Part shown: positions 11,519 through 63,175 of the stretch, one piece after another
Numbering within the stretch: position 1 is the first letter of the stretch
Layout: the number at the start of each line of letters is the position of its first letter
Source: Glycomyces amatae
GTDB lineage: Bacteria; Actinomycetota; Actinomycetes; Mycobacteriales; Micromonosporaceae
NCBI RefSeq assembly: GCF_020991375.1
Contig: NZ_JAJLQZ010000010.1
Location: forward strand, 1-64,000
Length of the DNA: 64,000 nucleotides
Direction: 5' to 3'
Notes under the pieces: generated by a model
What the model was told of the DNA's origin: nothing
What the model saw: only the letters and a program-made list of their open reading frames with translations
Databases searched by the model: none
Made by a program: the position numbers and the translations under genes

Positions 11519-12301
11519 CTATACGTCAACGGGATCGACCCATCGGACCGCGGAGTAATTGCGCCACAAGTGGAGCAGTGCCGGGTCTCCGTGGACTGAC
11601 AGGTCGTCGAAGGGCAGCCGGTTCCACAGCGCCAGGTACAGCAGCTCCACCGGGCCCTCGATGACGCAGTGCGGGGTCTCGACCTCGCTGAACGTCACGA
11701 GCGGGCCCGTGTCGGTGGGGTGGATGTACCAGTCGCCGCGGCCTGGGGGCAGGTCGCTGGCGTGGATGTGGAGCACTGACGGCCGCAGTGCCCGCACCCG
11801 GCTCGACGGCCTGCCGTGGAAGCCCAGCAGCAGCTCGTCGATGCCGTCGGCCGCGAAGTCGGGGCCGACCGGTGATATCTCGTCGCCGCGCGCCTGTTCG
11901 GCGTCGACGCGGTGGATGGTGGTCTCGTGGGCCTGTCTGCGGACCCAGAAGCGCCGTGAGGACTGAGAGGGGAACACCTGCCAGCACTGGAGGTCGTCAG
12001 GTGCGTCCTCCAGTGTGGCCGCGAGCCGGTCGAGGCCCTCGCGCACCCAGTCGACCAGCAGGTCGTCGTGGGGCAGGGGCCCCACGATCCGCTGGAGGTC
12101 CTGCTTCCTGGGGTCGTGAGGCAGCGCTCCGCCGACGATCGCCGCCGCCCAGCGATGGACGGTCCCGATATGGGTCAAGAGGTCCTTGACGACCCAGCCC
12201 GGGCAGGTGGGCACGATGGCGTTGAGCGCGAGTTCCCCACCAGCGACAGCGATCCGCTCCCCTTCGGTCCGCAGCACGTTGATTTGATCGCCGATGTTCA
12301 T
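11519..12301 (-). CDS. Maleylpyruvate isomerase-family mycothiol-dependent enzyme
   Basis: This 260-aa protein has an N-terminal DinB-like/MDMPI four-helix domain (about 1-150). The metal-site pattern includes the histidine in DLLTHIGTVHRW and the HETTIHRVDAE motif. It also has a C-terminal MDMPI-type domain. Such enzymes use mycothiol, the actinobacterial thiol, in isomerisation or conjugation reactions. The substrate here is unknown. The ATG at 12301 is preceded immediately by AGAGG. A longer form (20 extra residues) is possible. It stands alone between the YibE/F gene and the divergent TenI-like gene. Confidence 0.8.
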   Translation of the reverse strand: MNIGDQINVLRTEGERIAVAGGELALNAIVPTCPGWVVKDLLTHIGTVHRWAAAIVGGALPHDPRKQDLQRIVGPLPHDDLLVDWVREGLDRLAATLEDAPDDLQCWQVFPSQSSRRFWVRRQAHETTIHRVDAEQARGDEISPVGPDFAADGIDELLLGFHGRPSSRVRALRPSVLHIHASDLPPGRGDWYIHPTDTGPLVTFSEVETPHCVIEGPVELLYLALWNRLPFDDLSVHGDPALLHLWRNYSAVRWVDPVDV

Positions 12302-12444
12302 CCTCTGAAGTTTCGCACCTGTGTCGTGAATTACGCAAGTTCGAGACGTGGACCGATACACAAGCGTTAAACCGGTGTAGCAGCGGCGAGTCAGGCGAAA
12401 GCGACTCCCGGAACACCGGCCACTCCGGATAGGCTCGGATCCCC

Positions 12445-13008
12445 ATGCATCCGCTCCTGGTCGTCTCCGACGCGCCCCGGTGCCCGCGGCCCCTCGCCGA
12501 GCAGGTCGCGCTGGCGCTGCGCGGCGGCCCGTTCGCGCTCGTCCTGCGCGACAAGCACCTGCCGTGGGAGGCCCGCCTCGCCCTGGCCGCGGCTCTGCGG
12601 CCGGTCCTGGAGGACGCGGGCGGCACGCTCATCGTCGCCGACCCGGCCGCGCCCGTCGCGGCCGCGCACCTCTCGGCCCGCTTCCCGGTCCCGGCGCCGC
12701 GGCCCGCGCTGCTGGGCCGCTCCGTCCACGCCGGGGAGCGCATCGACCCCGGGCTCGACTACTGCACCTACTCGCCGGTCTGGCCCACCGCGTCCAAGCC
12801 CGGCTACGGCCCCGCCGCGGGCACGGACGGGCTGGCCGCGGTGTGCGGGGGACCGGTCCCCGTGTTCGCGCTCGGCGGCGTCACCGGCCCCGACCGCGCC
12901 CGCGCCGCGAGGGAGGCGGGCGCGGCGGGGGTCGCGGTCATGGGCGCGGTGATGCGCGCCGCCGACCCGGAGCGCGCGGTGCGCGGGCTCCGGGAGGCGC
13001 TCCTCTAG
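12445..13008 (+). CDS. Thiamine phosphate synthase/TenI-like TIM-barrel protein
   Basis: This 187-aa protein follows the ThiE/TenI barrel: LRDK near the first strands, [20 protein letters not shown] in the phosphate-loop region, FALGGV and VAVMGAVM near the end. It is shorter than typical ThiE (about 210 aa), which fits TenI (thiazole tautomerase-like) better than full ThiE. No other thiamine gene and no TPP riboswitch is nearby, so the role is open. Its last 4 bases overlap the stop codon of the convergent beta-glucosidase gene. Confidence 0.72.
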
Positions 13009-14351
13009 CGCTCCAGCCCGTTCGCCTCGATGACGCCGGCGTAGAACTTGGCGCTGGACTTGGGGGTCCGCTTCTGGGTCGCGTAGTCGACGTGGACGAT
13101 GCCGAAGCGCTTGTCGTAGCCGAAGGCCCACTCGAAGTTGTCCATGAGGGACCAGGCGGTGTAGCCGCGGACGTCCGCGCCCGCCTCGATCGCGTCGTGG
13201 ACCGCCGCGATGTGCGCGCGCAGGTAGGCGACGCGCTCGACGTCGTCGACCTCGCCGTCCTCGCCGGGCCCGGTCGGGTAGGCCGCGCCGTTCTCGGTGA
13301 TCATGGTCGGCACGTTGTAGTCCTTGTGCAGGCGCACCAGCAGGTCCGTCAGGCCGGACGCCTCGATCGGCCAGCCCATGTCGGTGAACTCCAGGCCCTC
13401 GGGGGTCCAGGTCTCGATCCCGGCCGAGCCGGGCTGCACGTCGGACTCGGGGGCGTCGGGGTTCACCCGGAACCAGGTGGGGTTGTAGTAGTTGACGCCG
13501 AGCAGGTCGATCGGCTGGTTGATCTGGTCGAGGTCGCCGTCGCGCACGAAGGACCAGTCGGTGTGGTGCGCGGTCCGCTCGAGCATCTCGGCGGGGTACT
13601 CGCCCTTGAGGATCGGGTCGAAGAAGACCCGGTTCGCGAGTCCGTCGGCGATTCGCACGGCCTCCTCGTCGCCGCGGCACTGGGTCGGGTTGAGCGCGAT
13701 CGAGACCCGCTCGGCGCCGGCGGCGCGCAGCGCCTGCACGGCGAGGCCGTGGGCGAGGTTGAGGTGGTGGGCCGCGGCGAGCGCCGCGGCGGGCTCGGTG
13801 CGCCCGGGGGCGTGGTGGCCGTTGCCGTAGCCGAGGAACGCCGAGCACCACGGCTCGTTCAGGGTCCACCAGGTGTGGACGCGGTCGGAGAGCCGGCCCG
13901 CGACGATCGCGGCGTACTCGCCGAAGCGCTCGGCGGTCTCGCGCTCGGGCCAGCCGCCGCGGTCCTCGAAGCCCTGCGGCAGGTCCCAGTGGTAGAGCGT
14001 CGGCATCGGCTTGATCCCGGCGGCGACCAGCTTGTCGACGAGCCGGTCGTAGAAGTCGAGCCCCGCCGGGTTGGCGGGGCCCGTGCCGTCGGGCTGGATG
14101 CGCGGCCACGCGATCGAGAACCGGTAGGTGTCGAGGCCCAGCGACGCCATGAGGGCGACGTCCTCGTCGAGGCGGTGGTAGTGGTCGCAGGCGACGCGGC
14201 CGGTCTGGCCGCGCCAGGTCTTCCCCGGCGTGTCCGCGAACGTGTCCCAGATGGAGGGCCCGCGCCCGTCCTCGGCGGCGGCGCCCTCGACCTGGTAGGA
14301 GGCCGTCGCGGTTCCCCAGAGGAAGCCCTCGGGGAAGGTCAGCTGCGTCAT
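13005..14351 (-). CDS. GH1 beta-glucosidase
   Basis: This 448-aa cytoplasmic glycoside hydrolase family 1 enzyme opens with [19 protein letters not shown]. The acid/base glutamate lies in TLNEPWCS and the nucleophile glutamate in [24 protein letters not shown] segment lines the glucone site. It hydrolyses beta-glucosides such as cellobiose imported by the divergent ABC transporter. The ATG is preceded by AAAGG. The CebR-like box in the shared upstream region suggests cellobiose- or beta-glucoside-responsive repression. Confidence 0.95.
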
Positions 14352-55566: not shown

Positions 55567-56484
55567 CTACCGCCCGGCCTCCAGGGACGCCGCGCGCACC
55601 GAGCGCAGCAGCAGCCGCGGGTCGCCGAGCATCCGCTTGAGGCGGCGTTCGAGCCCCGCGATCGGCGTGAGGTTCTGCGGGGCCCGCGCGTCCTTGTGCG
55701 CGGCCGAGCCCAGCGGCGGCAGGGACGCCGCCGTCGCGTCGGCCAGCGCGATGGCCGCCTCCTCGCTCAGGTCGTCGGCGGCCTCGAGCCGGGCGATGCC
55801 CGCCCACCCGCGCGAGGACGTGCCCGGCAGGCGCAGGTACCAGGTGTAGCGCGGCCAGCCGGACATGAGGTGGAAGACCGGGGTCCGCTGACCGGGCGCG
55901 AGCCGCTCGACGACGGCGTTCAGCTCGGTCTGGAGGTAGGAGCGGTGGTGGCTCTTGACGTACCCCACCGAGTTCGGCAGCCGGGTGCGCCCGCGCAGCG
56001 GGCCGTCCAGGACGGACAGCTCGGCGTCCATCGCGACCATGGACGCGACCTTCGCCTCCAGCTCGGCCATCGCGGCCTGCGCGGTCGCGATGAGCTCGCC
56101 GGGATCGGCCGACTCGGCCCTGCGGTACGGGTAGCGGCCGAAGTCGGCGCCGGGGTCGACGGCGGCGAACAGGCCGCGCTCCACGGCCGCCTCGGCGACG
56201 GCCGAGGCCTTGCCGTCGAGGTCGCAGGCGACGGCGCCCGCGGCCCAGGAGACGCACACGCCCGGCGAGCGGACGCCCTCGTCGAGCAGCTCGACGCGGG
56301 CGTCGATGCGGCGCACCCCGTCGACCACGACGATCCGCCGCGGCCCCGAGGCGGGCGCGTCGACCGGCCGCCAGTCGGCGGGGTCGAGCTCGACGTCGGA
56401 CCGGACCACGGCCCGGTCGGAGCGGGAGGGGGACTCCGGATTGTCGGCGAAGGAGGGGTCCCAGGCGTCGACGGTGATCTGCAA
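55567..56484 (-). CDS. nurA: NurA-family nuclease
   Basis: This 305-aa protein matches NurA: the metal-binding aspartate in IVVVDGVRRIDARVEL (Asp55), a downstream GRTRLPNSVGYVKSHHRSYL segment and the C-terminal HLMSGWPRYTWYLRLPG part. NurA is a 5'-3' exo/endonuclease that works with the HerA motor in end resection. The start is a TTG with GCAGGTG upstream; the frame stays open further upstream but with no family similarity. TAGTGT (plus 56516-56521) may be its -10 box. It lies 470 bp after sbcC on the same strand, at the end of the herA-sbcD-sbcC cluster. Confidence 0.82.
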   Translation of the reverse strand: MQITVDAWDPSFADNPESPSRSDRAVVRSDVELDPADWRPVDAPASGPRRIVVVDGVRRIDARVELLDEGVRSPGVCVSWAAGAVACDLDGKASAVAEAAVERGLFAAVDPGADFGRYPYRRAESADPGELIATAQAAMAELEAKVASMVAMDAELSVLDGPLRGRTRLPNSVGYVKSHHRSYLQTELNAVVERLAPGQRTPVFHLMSGWPRYTWYLRLPGTSSRGWAGIARLEAADDLSEEAAIALADATAASLPPLGSAAHKDARAPQNLTPIAGLERRLKRMLGDPRLLLRSVRAASLEAGR

Positions 56485-56955
56485 GGCGCACCTGCTTTCA
56501 AGATCGTTGGGGCCCACACTAGTCGGCCGCGGCTCGCGTGTCGCCCCCCCGCGGCCGTCCCAAACCCCCACCCTCCCGAGAGGGGAAAGGAAGCCTGGCT
56601 GCGAGCATCCCGGTTGCGACCGACAGGAATCGGCGCTGAAACCGTTCTGCGGACCGGAATTCACCCGAACGGAGGCGCTGACGTGAGCGATGCCTTTCCA
56701 ATCCGCCGGACCGACGCACCGGGTGCGGCGCCTCCCGCGGGGTGACCGCGAGACGGGAGATCGCCCTCCGGACCATCTCCCCGCGCCGCGTCTCCCACGG
56801 GCACCCGGCCGGATCCAGGCCGAAGTCGACACTGCGCGCCCGCGAGGAGGCCGCGCGTTCGCGGCCTCTCCAGAGGGCGCCACCCCCGCGGCCGCCCGGC
56901 CGAAGACGAGCAGAATGCCGCCTCCGGGGGCATGGAGGCCGCCTCACGCGAGCGT
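56485..56955 (-). other. 470-bp non-coding gap between sbcC and nurA
   Basis: I see no gene on either strand. A perfect 9-bp hairpin with a CGTT loop (56847-56868) may end the sbcC transcript. On the minus strand, GTTCGGGTGAATTCCGGTCC (complement of 56651-56670) resembles the GGGTGAATC core of ydaO riboswitches, but the rest of that fold is not recognisable. The nurA promoter lies at the nurA-proximal end. Confidence 0.45.
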
Positions 56956-59388
56956 TCAGCTGAAGGTCTTCTCCACGTGCGAACCCTTCGCGTCCTTCGT
57001 GATCCGGTACCGCACCGGCACCCGCTCGGCCAGCTCCGGCACGTGCGTGATGAGCCCCACCGTCCGGCCCGCCGAGAGCGTCAGCGCCTCCAGCGTGGTC
57101 GCCACCGCGTCCAGCGTCTCCGGGTCGAGCGTCCCGAACCCCTCGTCCAGGATGATCGACTCCAGGCACGCCCCGTGCCGCGCGAGGCTCGCCAGCTGGT
57201 CGCTCAGCGCGAGCGCCAGCGACAGCGACGCCGCGAACGTCTCGCCGCCCGACAGGCTCCGCGCCGGGCGCGCCATGTCCGCGTCGTGGTGGTCGACCAC
57301 CCAGAAGTCCTGGTCCCGGTAGATCAGGTCGTACTGGCCGCCCGTGATCTGGTTGAGCATCATCGTCGCGCCCGCCACCAGCTCGTCCAGCGCCTCGCTC
57401 AGCAGCCACTCCATGAACCGCCGCGCCTCCAGGTGCGACGCGAGCGCCTTCGCCACCTCGGCCTCGTGCGCGAACTTGCGGGTGTCCGCCTCCAGGTCGA
57501 CGCGCTGCGCGCGCGCCTCCTTGAGCCGCTCGTGCGCGCCGCGCGCCGACTCGACCGCGGCCGCGTGCCGTCCCACGTAGTCCCCGCCCGCGCCCGTCCG
57601 CGGCACGTCGACGTCGAACTCGCCCAGCGCGAGCCGCAGTTCGCTCCGCAGGGTCGCGGCCCGGCCGTCCAGGCCCGCCAGCTCGGTGCGGGCGGCCTCG
57701 CGCTCGACCTCCGCGCGCGCCATCGACGCGGCGGCCCAGTCGACCAGGTCCGTCCAGCTCGCGGCCAGGTCGTCCCCGCCCGCGGGCGGCCCGAGCACGG
57801 CCACCTGGTCGCGGGCGTGCTGGAACTCCTTCCAGGCCCGCTGCCGCCGCTCGTCCACGGCCGCCTTGCGCTTCTCGGCCTCCCGCAGGGCCCGCCGCGC
57901 CGCCTTGAGCGCCGCGCCGGTCCCCGCCAGCTGCTGCCGGGCCTCCTCCGAGGAGGCCCGCCGCGCCTGGAGCGCCGCCGGCTCGGGGACGTCCTCGAGC
58001 TTCTTCTTCAGCCGCCGCTCGGCCAGTTGCAGCTCGGTGAGCCGCTCCTCGTAGTTCTCCAGCTTCGTCTGGAGCGCGACGACGGCGGCCTGCGCGTCCC
58101 GGAACTCGTTCGTCGCCGTCCGCGAGGCCTCCTCGGCCTGCTGCATCGACTCCGACAGGTCGTGCTCGGGCACGTCCTCCACGGGGCGGTCGCAGACGGG
58201 GCACTCGTCGCCGACCTCGAGCCCGGCCCGCAGCGTCCCGGCCAGCTCGGCCATGCGGATCTTGTGGAGGGACGCGTGCTGGATCTCGACCTCCTCGGAC
58301 GCGGCCTCCTCGAGCTCCTTGGCCTCGGCGAACTGGGCGCGCAGCTCCTCGGTCAGCTCCCGGCCGGTGCGCAGCTTCGACTCGGTCTCGGCCAGCTCGG
58401 TCCAGGCCTTGAGCTGCCGCTCGATGAGTCCCAGGTCGAGGCCGTCCAGCTCGGACCGGAGCCGCTCGTCCTCGGCCTCGGTGGCCTCGACCTCGGCGGT
58501 CTTCTCGGCCACCGCCGCGTTCGCAGCCGCGACCTGCGCGGCGATGTCGGCGACCCCCTCGGGCCGCTTGATGTACGTCAGCGACCCGAGGTTCGACTCG
58601 GCCTCGTGGAGGCGTCGGCGCGCGGTCTCGACCGCGGCGGCCAGCCCGTCGAGCGCGGTCGCCTTGTCCCGCACCGGCTCGGTGAGCTTCTCGAGCTTCT
58701 CGGCGCGTTCGGCGGCCGCGCCGATCTCGGCGTCGGACACGGCCGGGACGCGCGCGAGCTGCGCCTCGAGGGTCTTCATCGCAGTGGTCGCGGCGTCGCG
58801 CTTCGCCCCGGCGAGCTGCTGGACCCGCCGGTAGACGCTGTGCCCCAGCAGGTTCTCGAGGATCTTGCGCCGGTCGGCGGGCGAGGCGTGCAGGAACTCG
58901 GCGAACTCGCCCTGGGGGAGGAGCACGCACTTGGTGAACTGCTCGAACGGCAGCCCGATGACCCGCTCGGCCGCGCTGCTGACCTCGCTGGGGCTGCCGG
59001 CGAGGGCCTTGCCGAGCCCTTCGACCAGCTCGCCGTCGTCGGCGGGGTTCACGCCTGCGGGCAGCTGCTCCAGCGCCGCGGTGGTGGTCTTGACCTTGCC
59101 GTTGCGGTCGCGGCGCAGGATCCTGGTGGCCACGTAGTGCATCCCGGCGGCGGCGAACACGAGCCGCACGCGGCCTTCGACGGCCGAGGGCGCGATGGCG
59201 TTCTGCGTGGTGTTCACGCGCCAGCGCGGGGTGCGCCCGTAGAGCGCGAAGCACATCGCGTCGAGCACCGTGGACTTCCCGGCGCCGGTGGGCCCGGTGA
59301 GCGCGAAGAAGTCGACGTCGGTGAAGTCGAAGGTCTCGGTCCCGGTGTAGGAGCCGAACCCTTGCAGATCCAAACGGATAGGGCGCAC
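56956..59388 (-). CDS. sbcC: SbcC/Rad50 DNA-repair ATPase
   Basis: This 810-aa SMC-like ATPase has Walker A GPTGAGKS (about 32-39), a long coiled coil, the zinc hook CPVC at about 396-399, the signature SLSGGETFAAS and Walker B SIILDEGFGTLD. With SbcD it tethers and cuts DNA ends and hairpins. It is shorter than E. coli SbcC (about 1050), as is usual in actinobacteria, because of a shorter coiled coil. The GTG at 59388 is preferred because GGAG lies 8 nt upstream and the family usually begins MRPxxL; a GTG at 59397 is the alternative. Confidence 0.94.
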   Translation of the reverse strand: MRPIRLDLQGFGSYTGTETFDFTDVDFFALTGPTGAGKSTVLDAMCFALYGRTPRWRVNTTQNAIAPSAVEGRVRLVFAAAGMHYVATRILRRDRNGKVKTTTAALEQLPAGVNPADDGELVEGLGKALAGSPSEVSSAAERVIGLPFEQFTKCVLLPQGEFAEFLHASPADRRKILENLLGHSVYRRVQQLAGAKRDAATTAMKTLEAQLARVPAVSDAEIGAAAERAEKLEKLTEPVRDKATALDGLAAAVETARRRLHEAESNLGSLTYIKRPEGVADIAAQVAAANAAVAEKTAEVEATEAEDERLRSELDGLDLGLIERQLKAWTELAETESKLRTGRELTEELRAQFAEAKELEEAASEEVEIQHASLHKIRMAELAGTLRAGLEVGDECPVCDRPVEDVPEHDLSESMQQAEEASRTATNEFRDAQAAVVALQTKLENYEERLTELQLAERRLKKKLEDVPEPAALQARRASSEEARQQLAGTGAALKAARRALREAEKRKAAVDERRQRAWKEFQHARDQVAVLGPPAGGDDLAASWTDLVDWAAASMARAEVEREAARTELAGLDGRAATLRSELRLALGEFDVDVPRTGAGGDYVGRHAAAVESARGAHERLKEARAQRVDLEADTRKFAHEAEVAKALASHLEARRFMEWLLSEALDELVAGATMMLNQITGGQYDLIYRDQDFWVVDHHDADMARPARSLSGGETFAASLSLALALSDQLASLARHGACLESIILDEGFGTLDPETLDAVATTLEALTLSAGRTVGLITHVPELAERVPVRYRITKDAKGSHVEKTFS

Positions 59389-59431
59389 GGCGTTCACTCC
59401 CGTCCGGGCGGTGGCGGGCTGGCGGGTGAGA

Positions 59432-59456
59432 GACGGGGCCGGGGCGGAGCCCCGTC
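59432..59456 (-). other. Intercistronic hairpin between sbcD and sbcC
   Basis: GACGGGGC and GCCCCGTC form an 8-bp stem with a 9-nt loop in the 85-bp gap between the two genes. It could weaken read-through or protect the sbcD message. Confidence 0.45.
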
Positions 59457-59473
59457 AGGTCCGGTCGGGCGCA

Positions 59474-60628
59474 TCAGGACTCCTCGGCGACGGTCTGGGT
59501 GTCCTCGTAGAGCTTCGCGAACAGCCCGGCCACGGCCGGGTCGTCGTGGCCGTTCTCGGCGAGGTAGGCGGTGAACAGCTCCCCGGGGCTGCGCCCCGAC
59601 CGGCGTTCGCGCGGCGCGGCCTCGGCGAGGCGCGCCACGGGGTCGATGTGGATCTGGACGGCGCGCGGGAACAGGTCGGCGACCTCGCCGCGCAGTCCGG
59701 CGCGGGCCGGTTCGGTCACGAAGACCCGCAGCCACGCCCGGTCGTCCACCGTCGCCTTCGCGAGCTGCTCGAGGGTGCCCCGCACCGTGGCGAGCGGGAC
59801 GGCCGCCGTCAGTGGGACGGTCCGCACCCGCGCGGGCGTCCCGGCCGTCACGTCCACGACGGCGACGCTCGGCGTGTGGTCCTCCTCGCCGAAGTCGACC
59901 GCGATCGGCCCGCCGGAGTAGCGGATCGGGCAGGGCCCGTTGATCGCCTGCGCCTTGTGCAGGTGGCCCAGGGCCGCGTAGCTCGTGGTGGGCGGGAAGA
60001 TCGCGGCGGGGACGGCGTAGTCGGCCACGGTGTGGACCTCGCGCTCCCCGCCGCCCACTTTGCCGCCGACCACGGTGAGGTGACCGGTGAACAGGTTGAC
60101 GGTGTCGGGGCCGAAGTCCTGCGTCAGGGCCGCGACGAGCCGCCGCAGGTGGTCGGCGTAGTTCGCCTCGGCGCCCGAGGCGCCGAGCTCGAACAGCTCG
60201 GCGGCCCGCACGGCGTGGCGCTGGGCGATGAACGGCAGGGCCGCGATCTTCCAGCGCTCGCCGTCCCGCGTGGTCCCGGTGACGAGGTGGTCGGCGGCCT
60301 TGCCGAGGCTTCCCCGCAGGTGGATCCCGGCGGCGCGGGCCCATTCGCGCAGGGCGTCGAGGGCCCTGCCGTTGTCGTGGTTCCCGGCGATGACGACGAC
60401 TTCGGCCCCGGTCTGGTGCAGCGCCGAGAGCGCGGCGGTCAGGAGCTTCTGCGCCTCGCTGGAGGGCGAGGCGGTGTCGAACAGGTCCCCGGCCACGATC
60501 ACCAGGTCGGCCTGCTCGTCTCTGGTGATGTCCACGATCTGCTTGAAGACCGCGCGCTGCTCGTCGAGGCGCGAGCGGCCCTTCATGGTGACGCCGACGT
60601 GCCAGTCGGAGGTGTGCAGAATCCGCAA
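59474..60628 (-). CDS. sbcD: SbcD/Mre11 exonuclease
   Basis: This 384-aa calcineurin-like phosphoesterase is the nuclease partner of SbcC. The metal-binding motifs are SDWHVG (7-12), AGDLFD (46-51) and AGNHDN (81-86), then TGHLTV and ALGHLHKAQ. It carries 3'-5' exonuclease and endonuclease activity on DNA ends. The start is a TTG with GGAGCC upstream, 11 bp after the herA stop, so herA, sbcD and sbcC form one operon. Confidence 0.95.
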   Translation of the reverse strand: MRILHTSDWHVGVTMKGRSRLDEQRAVFKQIVDITRDEQADLVIVAGDLFDTASPSSEAQKLLTAALSALHQTGAEVVVIAGNHDNGRALDALREWARAAGIHLRGSLGKAADHLVTGTTRDGERWKIAALPFIAQRHAVRAAELFELGASGAEANYADHLRRLVAALTQDFGPDTVNLFTGHLTVVGGKVGGGEREVHTVADYAVPAAIFPPTTSYAALGHLHKAQAINGPCPIRYSGGPIAVDFGEEDHTPSVAVVDVTAGTPARVRTVPLTAAVPLATVRGTLEQLAKATVDDRAWLRVFVTEPARAGLRGEVADLFPRAVQIHIDPVARLAEAAPRERRSGRSPGELFTAYLAENGHDDPAVAGLFAKLYEDTQTVAEES

Positions 60629-60639
60629 GGCTCAGGCTC

Positions 60640-62364
60640 CTAGAACGGGATGTCGTCTTCGTCGTCGCCGGCGAGGTCGAACGGGTCGACCCGGGCAGTG
60701 GGCGAGATGGCACGGCCCGGCCGTGCGGTGGCGGGCGCGGACCCGGCCTCGGCGGGGCGGGTGGCCCAGGCGGGGAACGGGAAGTTCACCACGAGCGGCA
60801 CCGGCAGCTCGGGCTGGGCCACGAACATGGTGCCGGGCTTGGCCATGAGCACCCGCATCCGCTGCGCCTGGGTGAGGAACCCGTACTCGGGGCGCGTGGC
60901 CTCGGCGGCGTCGAGCCGGCCGACGACGCGGATCGCCGAGTTCGAGGCGATCCGCCGCTCCACTTCGGACGCGGTCTGCTGCGCGCCGATGAGGATGACC
61001 CCCAGCGAGCGGCCGCGTTCGGCGATGTCGAGCAGGATGTCCTTGATCGGGCTGGTGCCCTCGCGCGGCGCGTACTTGTTGAGCTCGTCGAGGACGACGA
61101 ACTGGAGCGGCCGGGCCGAGCCCGCCTTCTCCTTGCGCTCGAACTCGGTGCGCAGCACCACGCCCACGACGAAGCGCTGCGCCCGGTCGGGCAGGTTGTG
61201 GAGGTCGACCACGGTCACCTGCGCCTCGGAGGCGAGGGCCGCGCCGCGGGGCGGCAGGTCGCCGCGGATGAGGCGGCCGATGTCGCGCCCCGAGGCGATG
61301 AGCCGCCGGATGAACGCGTTCACGGTGCCCAGGCCGATCGCGGACCCGGCCCACTCGGTGCGGGTCTCGTCGTCGGCGAGGCGCTCGCAGACGAGGTCGA
61401 CGAGGTCGCGGTAGGTCGTGAGCAGCTGCCCGTCGACGCTGATCGCGCCGTTGTCCTTGGGGCGGGCCTCCTTGCGCAGGCGGGCGGCGACCTGGTGGAC
61501 GACCATCGTGTACTGCTGGCGGTCGTCGTCGCCGTCGGCGAACACGAACGGCAGCAGGCTCAGCTGGCAGAACTCGGCGAGGGTCCAGTAGAACGCGTCG
61601 ACGCCGGTGGACCGGCACGCCACGTCCGGGATGCCGTTCGCGTCGCCCTCGCGCGGCGGGGCCAGGACCTCGACGGACTTGAACGCGCCGGGCTCCATGC
61701 CCAGGCGCCGGTAGGACTCGCGGATCGCGTCGTCGAGCTTCGAGTTGTCGTGGTCGAGGAGCAGCAGGTCCTCGCCCTTGACGTTGAAGATGAGCGCCTT
61801 GGTGTTCGCGGCCTCGGCGCCGAGCGCGCCCGAGTGCAGCAGCGAGTACAGCAGCCAGGTCGCGAACGAGGTCTTCGTGGCGACGCCGGAGATGCCCGAG
61901 ATGGAGACGTGCGCGCCCCGGGTGCCGTCGAGGAAGTCCGGGTTCAGGAACACCGGCTGCCCGTCCCGCGAGAACCCAAGGGGCACTTGACGGCTCATGC
62001 CGTCGAAGTACAGGGCCCGCTCGCGGTCCTCGCCGGTGGCGCGCTGGACCTCGGCGCCCGGGCGCGGCGGCACGAACACCTCCGGCTCGACCCGCGTCAC
62101 CGTGACCTCGGCGGCCTCCTGCACCTGCGCCGGGAGCAGGCCCCCGGCGATGTCGAAGACGTCGGAGTCGAACTGGGCGCCCTCGTGGCGCGAGCGGACC
62201 GAGGTGACCACGCCCGAGATGCGGACGGCGCCGACCCCCGGGACCTGGCGCTCGGTGGTCAGCACGTCGTCGAGCTGGGCGTAGGCCTCGGGGCCGACGC
62301 CGACCCAGAACGACAGGGGCGTCGCGTCCTCCGTGCCGAGCACGCGTCCCACCGATTCACTCAT
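60640..62364 (-). CDS. HerA-like ATPase (FtsK-HerA superfamily)
   Basis: This 574-aa protein has an N-terminal HAS-barrel-like beta domain (about 5-100) and a RecA-type motor. The P-loop reads GISGVATKTS (157-166), where the usual GK-T has Thr in place of the second Gly. Walker B is LQFVVLDELNK, with Asp-Glu at 426-427. A GAQQTASEVERRIASNSAIRVVGR segment carries the sensor and arginine finger. The C-terminal tail DDEDDIPF is acidic. The protein would form a hexameric DNA-pumping motor that partners NurA. The ATG overlaps the upstream reductase gene by 8 bp. Confidence 0.85.
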   Translation of the reverse strand: MSESVGRVLGTEDATPLSFWVGVGPEAYAQLDDVLTTERQVPGVGAVRISGVVTSVRSRHEGAQFDSDVFDIAGGLLPAQVQEAAEVTVTRVEPEVFVPPRPGAEVQRATGEDRERALYFDGMSRQVPLGFSRDGQPVFLNPDFLDGTRGAHVSISGISGVATKTSFATWLLYSLLHSGALGAEAANTKALIFNVKGEDLLLLDHDNSKLDDAIRESYRRLGMEPGAFKSVEVLAPPREGDANGIPDVACRSTGVDAFYWTLAEFCQLSLLPFVFADGDDDRQQYTMVVHQVAARLRKEARPKDNGAISVDGQLLTTYRDLVDLVCERLADDETRTEWAGSAIGLGTVNAFIRRLIASGRDIGRLIRGDLPPRGAALASEAQVTVVDLHNLPDRAQRFVVGVVLRTEFERKEKAGSARPLQFVVLDELNKYAPREGTSPIKDILLDIAERGRSLGVILIGAQQTASEVERRIASNSAIRVVGRLDAAEATRPEYGFLTQAQRMRVLMAKPGTMFVAQPELPVPLVVNFPFPAWATRPAEAGSAPATARPGRAISPTARVDPFDLAGDDEDDIPF

Positions 62365-63124
62365 CGCTCGATCCTCGCATGTAGCGCAGCATGAGGTTGC
62401 CCCCGGCTTCGAGGACGTGTCGCAGCACGAGCGGCCGCGCCGCGGCGGCCGTCGGCTGCGCGCCGCGACCGGCGCCGTGGGCCTCGGCGATCCGCATCGG
62501 ACCGGGCCCGACCAGCTTCGGCGCGAGCGTGAGGTCCAGCTCGTCGGCCAGGTCGGCCTCGACGAGGGACCCGAAGACGTGCGGCCCGCCCTCGCACAGG
62601 ACCTGCCGCAGGCCCCGCTCGCGCAGCGCCGCCACGGCCGCGGCGAGGTCGACCTCGCCCTCCCCGGCGGCGATCACGTCGGCGACCGCTAGGAACGGCT
62701 CGAGCCGCTCCTTCGCCAGGTCCGCCGGGACGATGAGGATCGGGCGCCGGGGCGCCTCGGTGAAGATCCCCGAGCCGGGGTCGAGCGCGGCCGTGCGCGA
62801 GACGATCGCCATGACCGGCACCTCCGGCAGGCCCCGCGCCCGGCGCCACGCCATCCGGTCGGGGGAGAGCACCAGCGGCCCGTACCCCTCCGTGCGGACC
62901 GTCCCCGACCCGGCGACGAGCACGTCGCACCGGGCCCGCAGGACCTTGAAGACCCGCTTGTCCTCCTCACCGGACAGTGGACCCGAGACCCCCTCGAGGG
63001 TCGCGGCGCCGTCGGCGCTGGAGACGAAGTTGACCCGCAGCCAGTCGGGCCCGGGCGGCTCGTAGGCCGCGTACACCTCGTCGTCGGTCAGTTCATCGAG
63101 TCTTCGGAAGCGCACCTCTGCCAC
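62357..63124 (-). CDS. RibD C-terminal-type pyrimidine reductase
   Basis: This 255-aa dihydrofolate reductase-like protein has NFVSSADGAATLEG, VLVAGSGTVRTEGYGP and VLCEGGPHVFGSL, the landmarks of the riboflavin-pathway uracil reductase domain. It lacks the deaminase half, so it is a standalone reductase; the substrate may be a riboflavin intermediate or another NADPH-reduced compound. The GTG at 63124 is 6 nt after TACCTT (plus 63131-63136); a GTG at 63142 is possible. It overlaps herA by 8 bp and so heads the repair operon. Confidence 0.85.
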   Translation of the reverse strand: MAEVRFRRLDELTDDEVYAAYEPPGPDWLRVNFVSSADGAATLEGVSGPLSGEEDKRVFKVLRARCDVLVAGSGTVRTEGYGPLVLSPDRMAWRRARGLPEVPVMAIVSRTAALDPGSGIFTEAPRRPILIVPADLAKERLEPFLAVADVIAAGEGEVDLAAAVAALRERGLRQVLCEGGPHVFGSLVEADLADELDLTLAPKLVGPGPMRIAEAHGAGRGAQPTAAAARPLVLRHVLEAGGNLMLRYMRGSSDE

Positions 63125-63175
63125 GGCCACAAGGTAGCCCACGGGCCCGACAGCCCGGCACCGGGAGGTCCATTG

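Follow-up and report, generated by a model that had tools for sequence, protein, structure and literature searches.

Do actinobacteria possess a counterpart of the archaeal operon for DNA-end resection? The question is raised by a 64,000-nucleotide stretch of the soil bacterium Glycomyces amatae (positions 1 to 64,000 of contig NZ_JAJLQZ010000010.1; hereafter the window). The contig measures 191 kb and the genome 6.17 Mb, at a completeness of 100, and in the window genes for a HerA-like motor, an SbcD nuclease, an SbcC ATPase and a NurA nuclease lie together. A reading made from the sequence alone had placed these four genes on one strand, and all of them are found where it placed them, on the minus strand. 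We consider it likely, from sequence comparison and from analogy with characterised systems, that they form a chromosomal DNA-end-resection operon. This view is built on the identity of the four proteins, on the conservation of their linkage among actinobacteria, and on a separate lineage of the SbcCD nuclease within the cluster. The closest named relatives of the source genome are Glycomyces species (HerA identity 94–96%). The features of the locus are as follows (aa, amino acids; nt, nucleotides).

62357–63142, minus strand: RibD-C-like reductase of the Rv2671 kind (Pfam RibD_C, E 3.7e-29; PDB 4xrb, Rv2671, E 4.8e-44)
60640–62364, minus strand: herA, 574 aa, FtsK/HerA-family DNA translocase of the Deinococcus type (7f6d_B, E 5.6e-139)
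59474–60628, minus strand: sbcD, 384 aa, TTG start, Mre11-type nuclease (TIGR00619, SbcD 4lty, tree)
56956–59397, minus strand: sbcC, 813 aa, GTG start, Rad50-type ATPase with a CPVC zinc hook (TIGR00618, 6s6v_C, tree)
56485–56955, minus strand: sbcC-nurA gap of 471 nt with one copy of a dispersed repeat inside
55567–56484, minus strand: nurA, 305 aa, TTG start, predicted RNase-H-fold nuclease (7f6d_H, E 1.3e-19; AlphaFold2 model; residues)

Reductase and herA overlap by 8 nt, herA and sbcD are separated by 11 nt, and sbcD and sbcC by 76 nt.

Identity of the four proteins

HerA and NurA are hardly visible to family profiles. The Pfam HerA domain stays below its own cut-off on the 574-aa protein, and Pfam NurA reaches 17.3 bits on the 305-aa protein under a cut-off of 21 bits, leaving the one genome searched, that of the window, with no match to PF09376 (NurA) over the cut-off. 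Routine annotation may therefore miss both proteins. Pfam and NCBIfam left their identity unsettled, and it was settled by searches against the sequences of solved structures, which pair the motor with Deinococcus radiodurans HerA (7f6d_B) at E 5.6e-139 and the 305-aa protein with the NurA of that species (7f6d_H, DrNurA) at E 1.3e-19. The sequence-only reading had staked its proposal on a NurA fold in the latter, and such a fold is predicted. An AlphaFold2 model built from a 12-sequence alignment (predicted local distance difference test, 87.5; predicted template modelling score, 0.85) has Thermotoga TM1739 (1zup) as its top neighbour, with Z 22.8 and a root-mean-square deviation (rmsd) of 3.1 over 261 aligned residues, and lies close to DrNurA (7f6d_G; Z 22.2, rmsd 3.0, 281 aligned). 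Sulfolobus NurA (2ygk) follows at Z 15.1 and other archaeal NurA entries at 9.6–12.8, while TdpAB scores 12.5–12.7 and endonuclease V at most 10.6.

The active residues are retained in both proteins. Mutation of D53, K201 or R309 abolishes the nuclease activity of DrNurA (PMC9960219; this and the other papers below are cited from excerpts of their text), and HMMER alignment maps these residues to D55, K177 and R267 of the Glycomyces protein, once the DrNurA chain numbers are offset by 20 for a presumed tag. All three are invariant in the 12 aligned NurAs. Sequence match, predicted fold and conserved residues together identify the 305-aa protein as NurA. Likewise K164, T165, K196, D199, D426, E427, R434, R452 and R491 of the Glycomyces HerA align with K175, T176, K217, D220, D487, E488, R495, R513 and R552 of the Deinococcus HerA (DrHerA). 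They include Walker A (K164/T165), Walker B (D426/E427), the translocation residues R434 and R491, and the trans residue R452. R154 and R96 of DrHerA are not kept and correspond to D143 and E86.

SbcD is identified by TIGR00619 (E 3.5e-58; 197.4 bits, over the cut-off of 77.65 bits). SbcC falls under the cut-off of TIGR00618 (252.4 against 478.5 bits, E 8.4e-75); it is over the cut-offs of Pfam SbcC_Walker_B and AAA_23, matches 6s6v_C at E 1e-40 and carries the CPVC (CxxC) zinc hook. Among solved structures SbcD is nearest to 4lty (E 1.9e-38), which we take to be E. coli SbcD, and then to 7dog (1e-25); the Mre11 nuclease 1ii7, presumably that of Pyrococcus, follows at 5.7e-9 over 88 residues.

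Conservation of the cluster in actinobacteria

Gene order was laid out with profiles of HerA, SbcD, SbcC and NurA at 140 loci in three sets: 20 relatives (two of the 21 congeners, plus every one of the 18 remaining HerA genomes among 61), 40 loci picked for family diversity from the 92 HerA genomes of a 396-genome phylum sample, and 80 named loci, the top 80 out of 293 that were confirmed. The 140 include at least one case of two loci from a single genome (L033, L121). All four genes lie on one strand, in either of two orders, at 113 of the 140 loci, which bears out the suggestion that homologous arrangements occur in other actinobacteria; the 140 do not include the window itself, and a linkage kept at so many of them is more than chance. 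The order herA-sbcD-sbcC-nurA, that of the window, is found at 92 loci (17/20 relatives, 12/40 phylum, 63/80 named), and the order nurA-herA-sbcD-sbcC at 21, all in the phylum set (0/20, 21/40, 0/80). Another 20 loci are cut by the end of a record (3 relatives, 2 phylum, 15 named), and seven depart from both orders (L084, L087, L108, L118, L120, L181, L200). Among the latter, L118 has a distant HerA alone, L108 has nurA-herA but lacks sbcD in its final 842 nt, L120 has a distant version of the cluster in which sbcC was not seen, and L200 shows none of the other genes in the 3 kb that follow herA; the other three are discussed below. In the window's own family 15 of the 17 loci laid out have all four genes and two are cut by contig ends. 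The 63 four-gene named loci come mainly from Micromonosporaceae (36), Glycomycetaceae (5), Streptosporangiaceae (5) and Pseudonocardiaceae (3), with two each from Thermomonosporaceae, Frankiaceae, Kineosporiaceae and Acidimicrobiales, and one each from Streptomycetaceae, Nakamurellaceae, Nitriliruptorales and other Actinomycetes. Two more are metagenome-assembled genomes labelled Bacteroidota and Gammaproteobacteria, labels that may be wrong.

Start/stop overlaps of 1–4 nt between cluster genes occur at many of the loci measured for gaps. No recurrent fifth gene was seen by eye in the wide intergene gaps of 16 loci, where the inserts differ by locus. One such insert, at L132 of Micromonospora sicca (11948–13441), is a TnpB/IS605-type-like transposon protein, as judged by eye, between sbcD and sbcC. 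Mirror-tree correlations among the four proteins were high (Pearson 0.80–0.91 over 64 loci; 0.68–0.82 over 48 first-order loci), and were set aside as support for co-evolution since kinship was not controlled with a species tree.

HerA and NurA also occur together at the level of whole genomes, contrary to the unrelated distribution that the sequence-only reading had named as evidence against itself. HerA orthologues are present in 40 of the 61 genomes. Every one of the 37 genomes from the window's own family has one, the source genome included, against 3 of the 24 drawn from the order's other families, where four further genomes give weak partial matches only. In the phylum sample (HerA threshold E 1e-20; NurA by profile A3 at E 1e-3, a profile partly built from genomes inside the sample) HerA is found in 92 and NurA in 79 of the 396 genomes; 76 have both, 16 HerA only, 3 NurA only and 301 neither. 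One family with a distant HerA, f32, supplies 13 of the 16 HerA-only and two of the three NurA-only genomes. When its 15 distant HerA genomes and G332 are removed from the HerA set, a refinement chosen after the data were seen, NurA is present in 74 of 76 HerA genomes but in 5 of the other 320, namely in four from f32 and in one that matches weakly. In f32 genomes, L119 and L120 among them, the distant HerA (27–33% identity) has a weakly matching NurA upstream and SbcD downstream, and at L119 also SbcC; the cluster thus probably exists in a second form that has diverged. G204 has, besides an ordinary cluster, a second diverged HerA with adjoining NurA and SbcD matches (contig C15, 13773–16929).

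SbcD has a wider distribution. Among the 61 relatives, each of the 40 with HerA has exactly one SbcD over the TIGR00619 cut-off. In the phylum sample SbcD passes this cut-off in 145 of the 396 genomes, and is thus common without HerA too. To the trees we supplied 46 linked first-order loci (45 of the 92 and the window), 20 of the 21 second-order loci, and 20 stand-alone sbcCD loci from HerA-less genomes (10 of the 12 SbcD-bearing ones among the relatives and 10 from the phylum sample). The SbcD tree has 84 rows (46 first-order, 19 second-order, 19 stand-alone), as one second-order and one stand-alone row were dropped for coverage, and the tree of the SbcC ATPase parts has 45, 16 and 20 rows respectively; both are unrooted and come from quick searches. 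In the SbcD tree linked and stand-alone proteins fall on opposite sides of one branch with a Shimodaira–Hasegawa-like approximate likelihood ratio test (SH-aLRT) support of 100. The SbcC tree gives the identical split, again with SH-aLRT 100, although the L119 row is very long-branched. Genomes of one order are divided by the presence of HerA (L049 and L050 against L209–L218), so that within this order the type of SbcCD follows HerA-NurA. The SbcCD of the cluster is a lineage apart from the stand-alone forms that were sampled from actinobacteria lacking HerA. One stand-alone SbcD matches 7dog (2e-34) ahead of 4lty (3.7e-30), a shorter query that is not strictly comparable with the linked SbcD. 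The length of the SbcC coil was tried as a mark of the linked lineage. Median residues matched are 809 and 816 in the linked sets against 989.5 in the stand-alone set, and 52 of 61 linked SbcCs are shorter than all 20 stand-alone ones; the other nine reach the length of the shortest of these, and the mark was dropped.

Proposed resection pathway and alternative explanations

In the proposed pathway SbcC-SbcD would recognise a break, open blocked or hairpin ends and hand them to HerA-NurA; the HerA ring would then pump double-stranded DNA into the NurA dimer, which would cut the 5′ strand and leave a 3′ single strand for RecA. The 5′ resection is inferred from the conserved residues and from D. 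radiodurans, where HerA translocates duplex DNA and the HerA-NurA complex digests the 5′ tail and leaves the 3′ tail (PMC9960219). The hand-over is suggested by the gene linkage, by the linked SbcCD lineage and by an archaeal precedent, the interaction of Mre11 with HerA in Sulfolobus acidocaldarius (PMC2288612).

The sequence-only reading had raised the question of how such clusters share the work with AdnAB/RecBCD and non-homologous end joining. The family search finds in the same genome a tandem of two UvrD-helicase/PDDEXK_1 proteins, which by their domain layout we take to be AdnAB; PDDEXK_1 itself is present in 61/61 genomes. The genome gives no match to RecC (PF04257) and none to Ku (PF02735), the latter being present in 29 of 40 HerA genomes and 20 of 21 others among the relatives. 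Within the genus Ku is patchy, with matches in 14 of 22 Glycomyces genomes. From the AdnAB-like tandem we conclude that HerA-NurA would here be an addition to AdnAB and no stand-in for it. Speculatively, the cluster would work beside this helicase-nuclease and probably take on ends that suit AdnAB poorly, with blocked ends as our guess. A larger claim can be put forward tentatively, with somewhat less than even confidence: that Actinomycetota have a dedicated four-protein resection machine, with an SbcCD lineage specific to HerA-NurA and a different one where HerA-NurA is missing, co-evolved to load HerA-NurA on blocked ends and forming a second resection pathway beside AdnAB.

Several points weigh against such an operon. 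The predicted contact between motor and nuclease is only partly conserved: two of three positions are kept in the acidic interface of HerA (D68 and D71, with E80 changed to F70), and four of the nine mapped positions in the basic NurA interface (K92 for R92, R117, H263, K264), motif 4 lying outside the alignment. The 471-nt gap upstream of nurA may mean a separate nurA transcript. At L084 and L087 HerA stands alone within 7.5 kb, with sbcD and nurA 10–20 kb off on the same contig and strand, and at L181 (Pseudonocardia thermophila) herA is alone within 9 kb. A second SbcD is present in at least four HerA genomes of the phylum sample (G204, G241, G326, G431). Knocking out herA or nurA changes damage resistance only mildly, or even in the opposite direction, in D. 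radiodurans and Thermus (PMC9960219, PMC4663267), and the open-licence literature yielded no data on expression, interaction or phenotype from any actinobacterium.

One alternative would be two independent machines placed side by side, HerA-NurA for resection and SbcCD for cleavage of hairpins and palindromes, which share their regulation only. The D. radiodurans herA-nurA pair is described as unclustered with sbcCD (PMC8708640), and at L039, L043, L089, L097 and L100 herA and sbcD are separated by 2.8–4.6 kb with other genes between. We hold this explanation to be unlikely, though deserving of consideration, since the link between herA-nurA and sbcCD is preserved in two different gene orders and the cluster SbcCD forms a separate lineage, which tracks HerA from family to family within one order.

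A defence module against phages, similar to HerA-nuclease systems or TdpAB, which would degrade invading DNA, is suggested by PADLOC matches of HerA (mad8, E 2.1e-10; HerA models, 2.2e-6 and weaker), SbcC (mad3, 1.1e-30; LmuB, 2.2e-28) and SbcD (an Effector model, 8.9e-8), and by the chain 8wfd_G, TdpB in our own reading of the entry, as a structural neighbour of NurA (Z 12.7). The SbcC matches are such as any Rad50-like ATPase may give, NurA has no PADLOC match at E 0.1, and its model is far nearer to bacterial NurAs (Z 22–23) than to 8wfd_G. Moreover HerA is steady, not patchy, in the own family, where its partners are SbcCD and NurA, and it is rare on plasmids (6 of 72,556 records at E 1e-10, one of them chromosome-sized) and phages (2 of 50,697 at E 1e-5); a defence role thus appears very improbable. 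Less credible still, indeed barely so, is a main role in DNA transfer or chromosome segregation after the manner of HerA/FtsK relatives. In Thermus, hepA, a bacterial herA homologue, and a second NurA-like gene do influence transjugation (PMC5448004), but SbcCD is the regular companion of HerA-NurA here and no transfer genes were recognised by eye in the gaps examined.

If the cluster is a resection operon, the split between the lineages predicts that only the linked SbcCD should bind or stimulate HerA-NurA. Mesophilic actinomycetes that carry the linked genes, and in which AdnAB may serve as a back-up, would make the cooperation of Mre11-Rad50 with HerA-NurA testable at ordinary temperature.

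Gene neighbourhood and comparison with known systems

The RibD-type reductase, noticed earlier for overlapping herA, does overlap it in the window, but lies outside the core. It precedes herA at many Micromonosporaceae and Glycomycetaceae loci, often some way off, and the flanks of loci from other families showed no sign of it, for which reason it was set aside as a part of the system. Among the loci measured for gaps the overlap is confined to Glycomyces (L031, L033, L034). Rv2671 has been connected with dihydrofolate reductase in the literature. The reductase is probably a neighbour and not a functional part, and in our own reading one that may have become translationally coupled.

The sbcC-nurA gap contains, at about 56546–56671, one copy of a dispersed repeat whose core reads CTTCCTTTCCCCTCTCGGGAGGGTGGGGGTTTGGGACGGC and which has 16 further partial matches elsewhere in the genome; its presence may account for the separation of nurA from sbcC in this Glycomyces. 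In other genera this junction consists mostly of short gaps or overlaps. Other Glycomyces have gaps of 0.1–2.7 kb with differing cargo (L124, 11434–14008; L122, 14421–15269; L034, 13415–13969), which by eye comprises carbonic anhydrase-like proteins, a transporter and a nucleotidyltransferase-like protein. Possibly the gap is an insertion hot spot in the genus.

Parts of this picture are already known, namely the occurrence of HerA and NurA in Actinobacteria (PMC8708640) and one bacterial hepA-sbcD-sbcC case (PMC5448004), again from excerpts. The open-licence literature, where an earlier mention is possible, yielded no paper that describes herA-nurA clustered with sbcCD in an actinobacterium, nor did we meet there the phylum-wide cluster, its two orders or the separate SbcCD lineage.

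The description of the locus as a bacterial version of the archaeal operon is apt in the sense that it would work like one. The herA-mre11-rad50-nurA operon of Sulfolobus, a thermophilic archaeon, clusters the same four activities, and in S. islandicus the genes are named in the order of the window (PMC4351679; that this is also the map order is our reading). Descent from the archaeal operon is unsupported, as SbcD and SbcC are of the bacterial type (SbcD 4lty, 1.9e-38, against 1ii7, 5.7e-9) and HerA-NurA of the Deinococcus type, with a NurA model closer to bacterial (Z 22–23) than to archaeal NurAs (9.6–15.1). E. coli SbcCD has the SbcD and SbcC domains and the zinc hook in common with the window; it differs in that the genes of the window are linked to herA-nurA and that their SbcC has 813 aa against 1048 aa (6s6v_C). 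In the thermophile Oceanithermus profundus sbcD and sbcC lie downstream of hepA (PMC5448004), and with nurA before hepA, as in Thermus, the arrangement would match our second order, the Oceanithermus nurA being inferred from that paper. This is a single organism likened by description only, whereas the window shows our first order and is one member of a set that spans the phylum. The closest characterised system is NurA-HerA of Deinococcus radiodurans, which shares the catalytic and translocation residues of the window. It differs in its interface residues, of which the window keeps only a part, and in that it stands apart from sbcCD (PMC8708640), with which the pair of the window is clustered.

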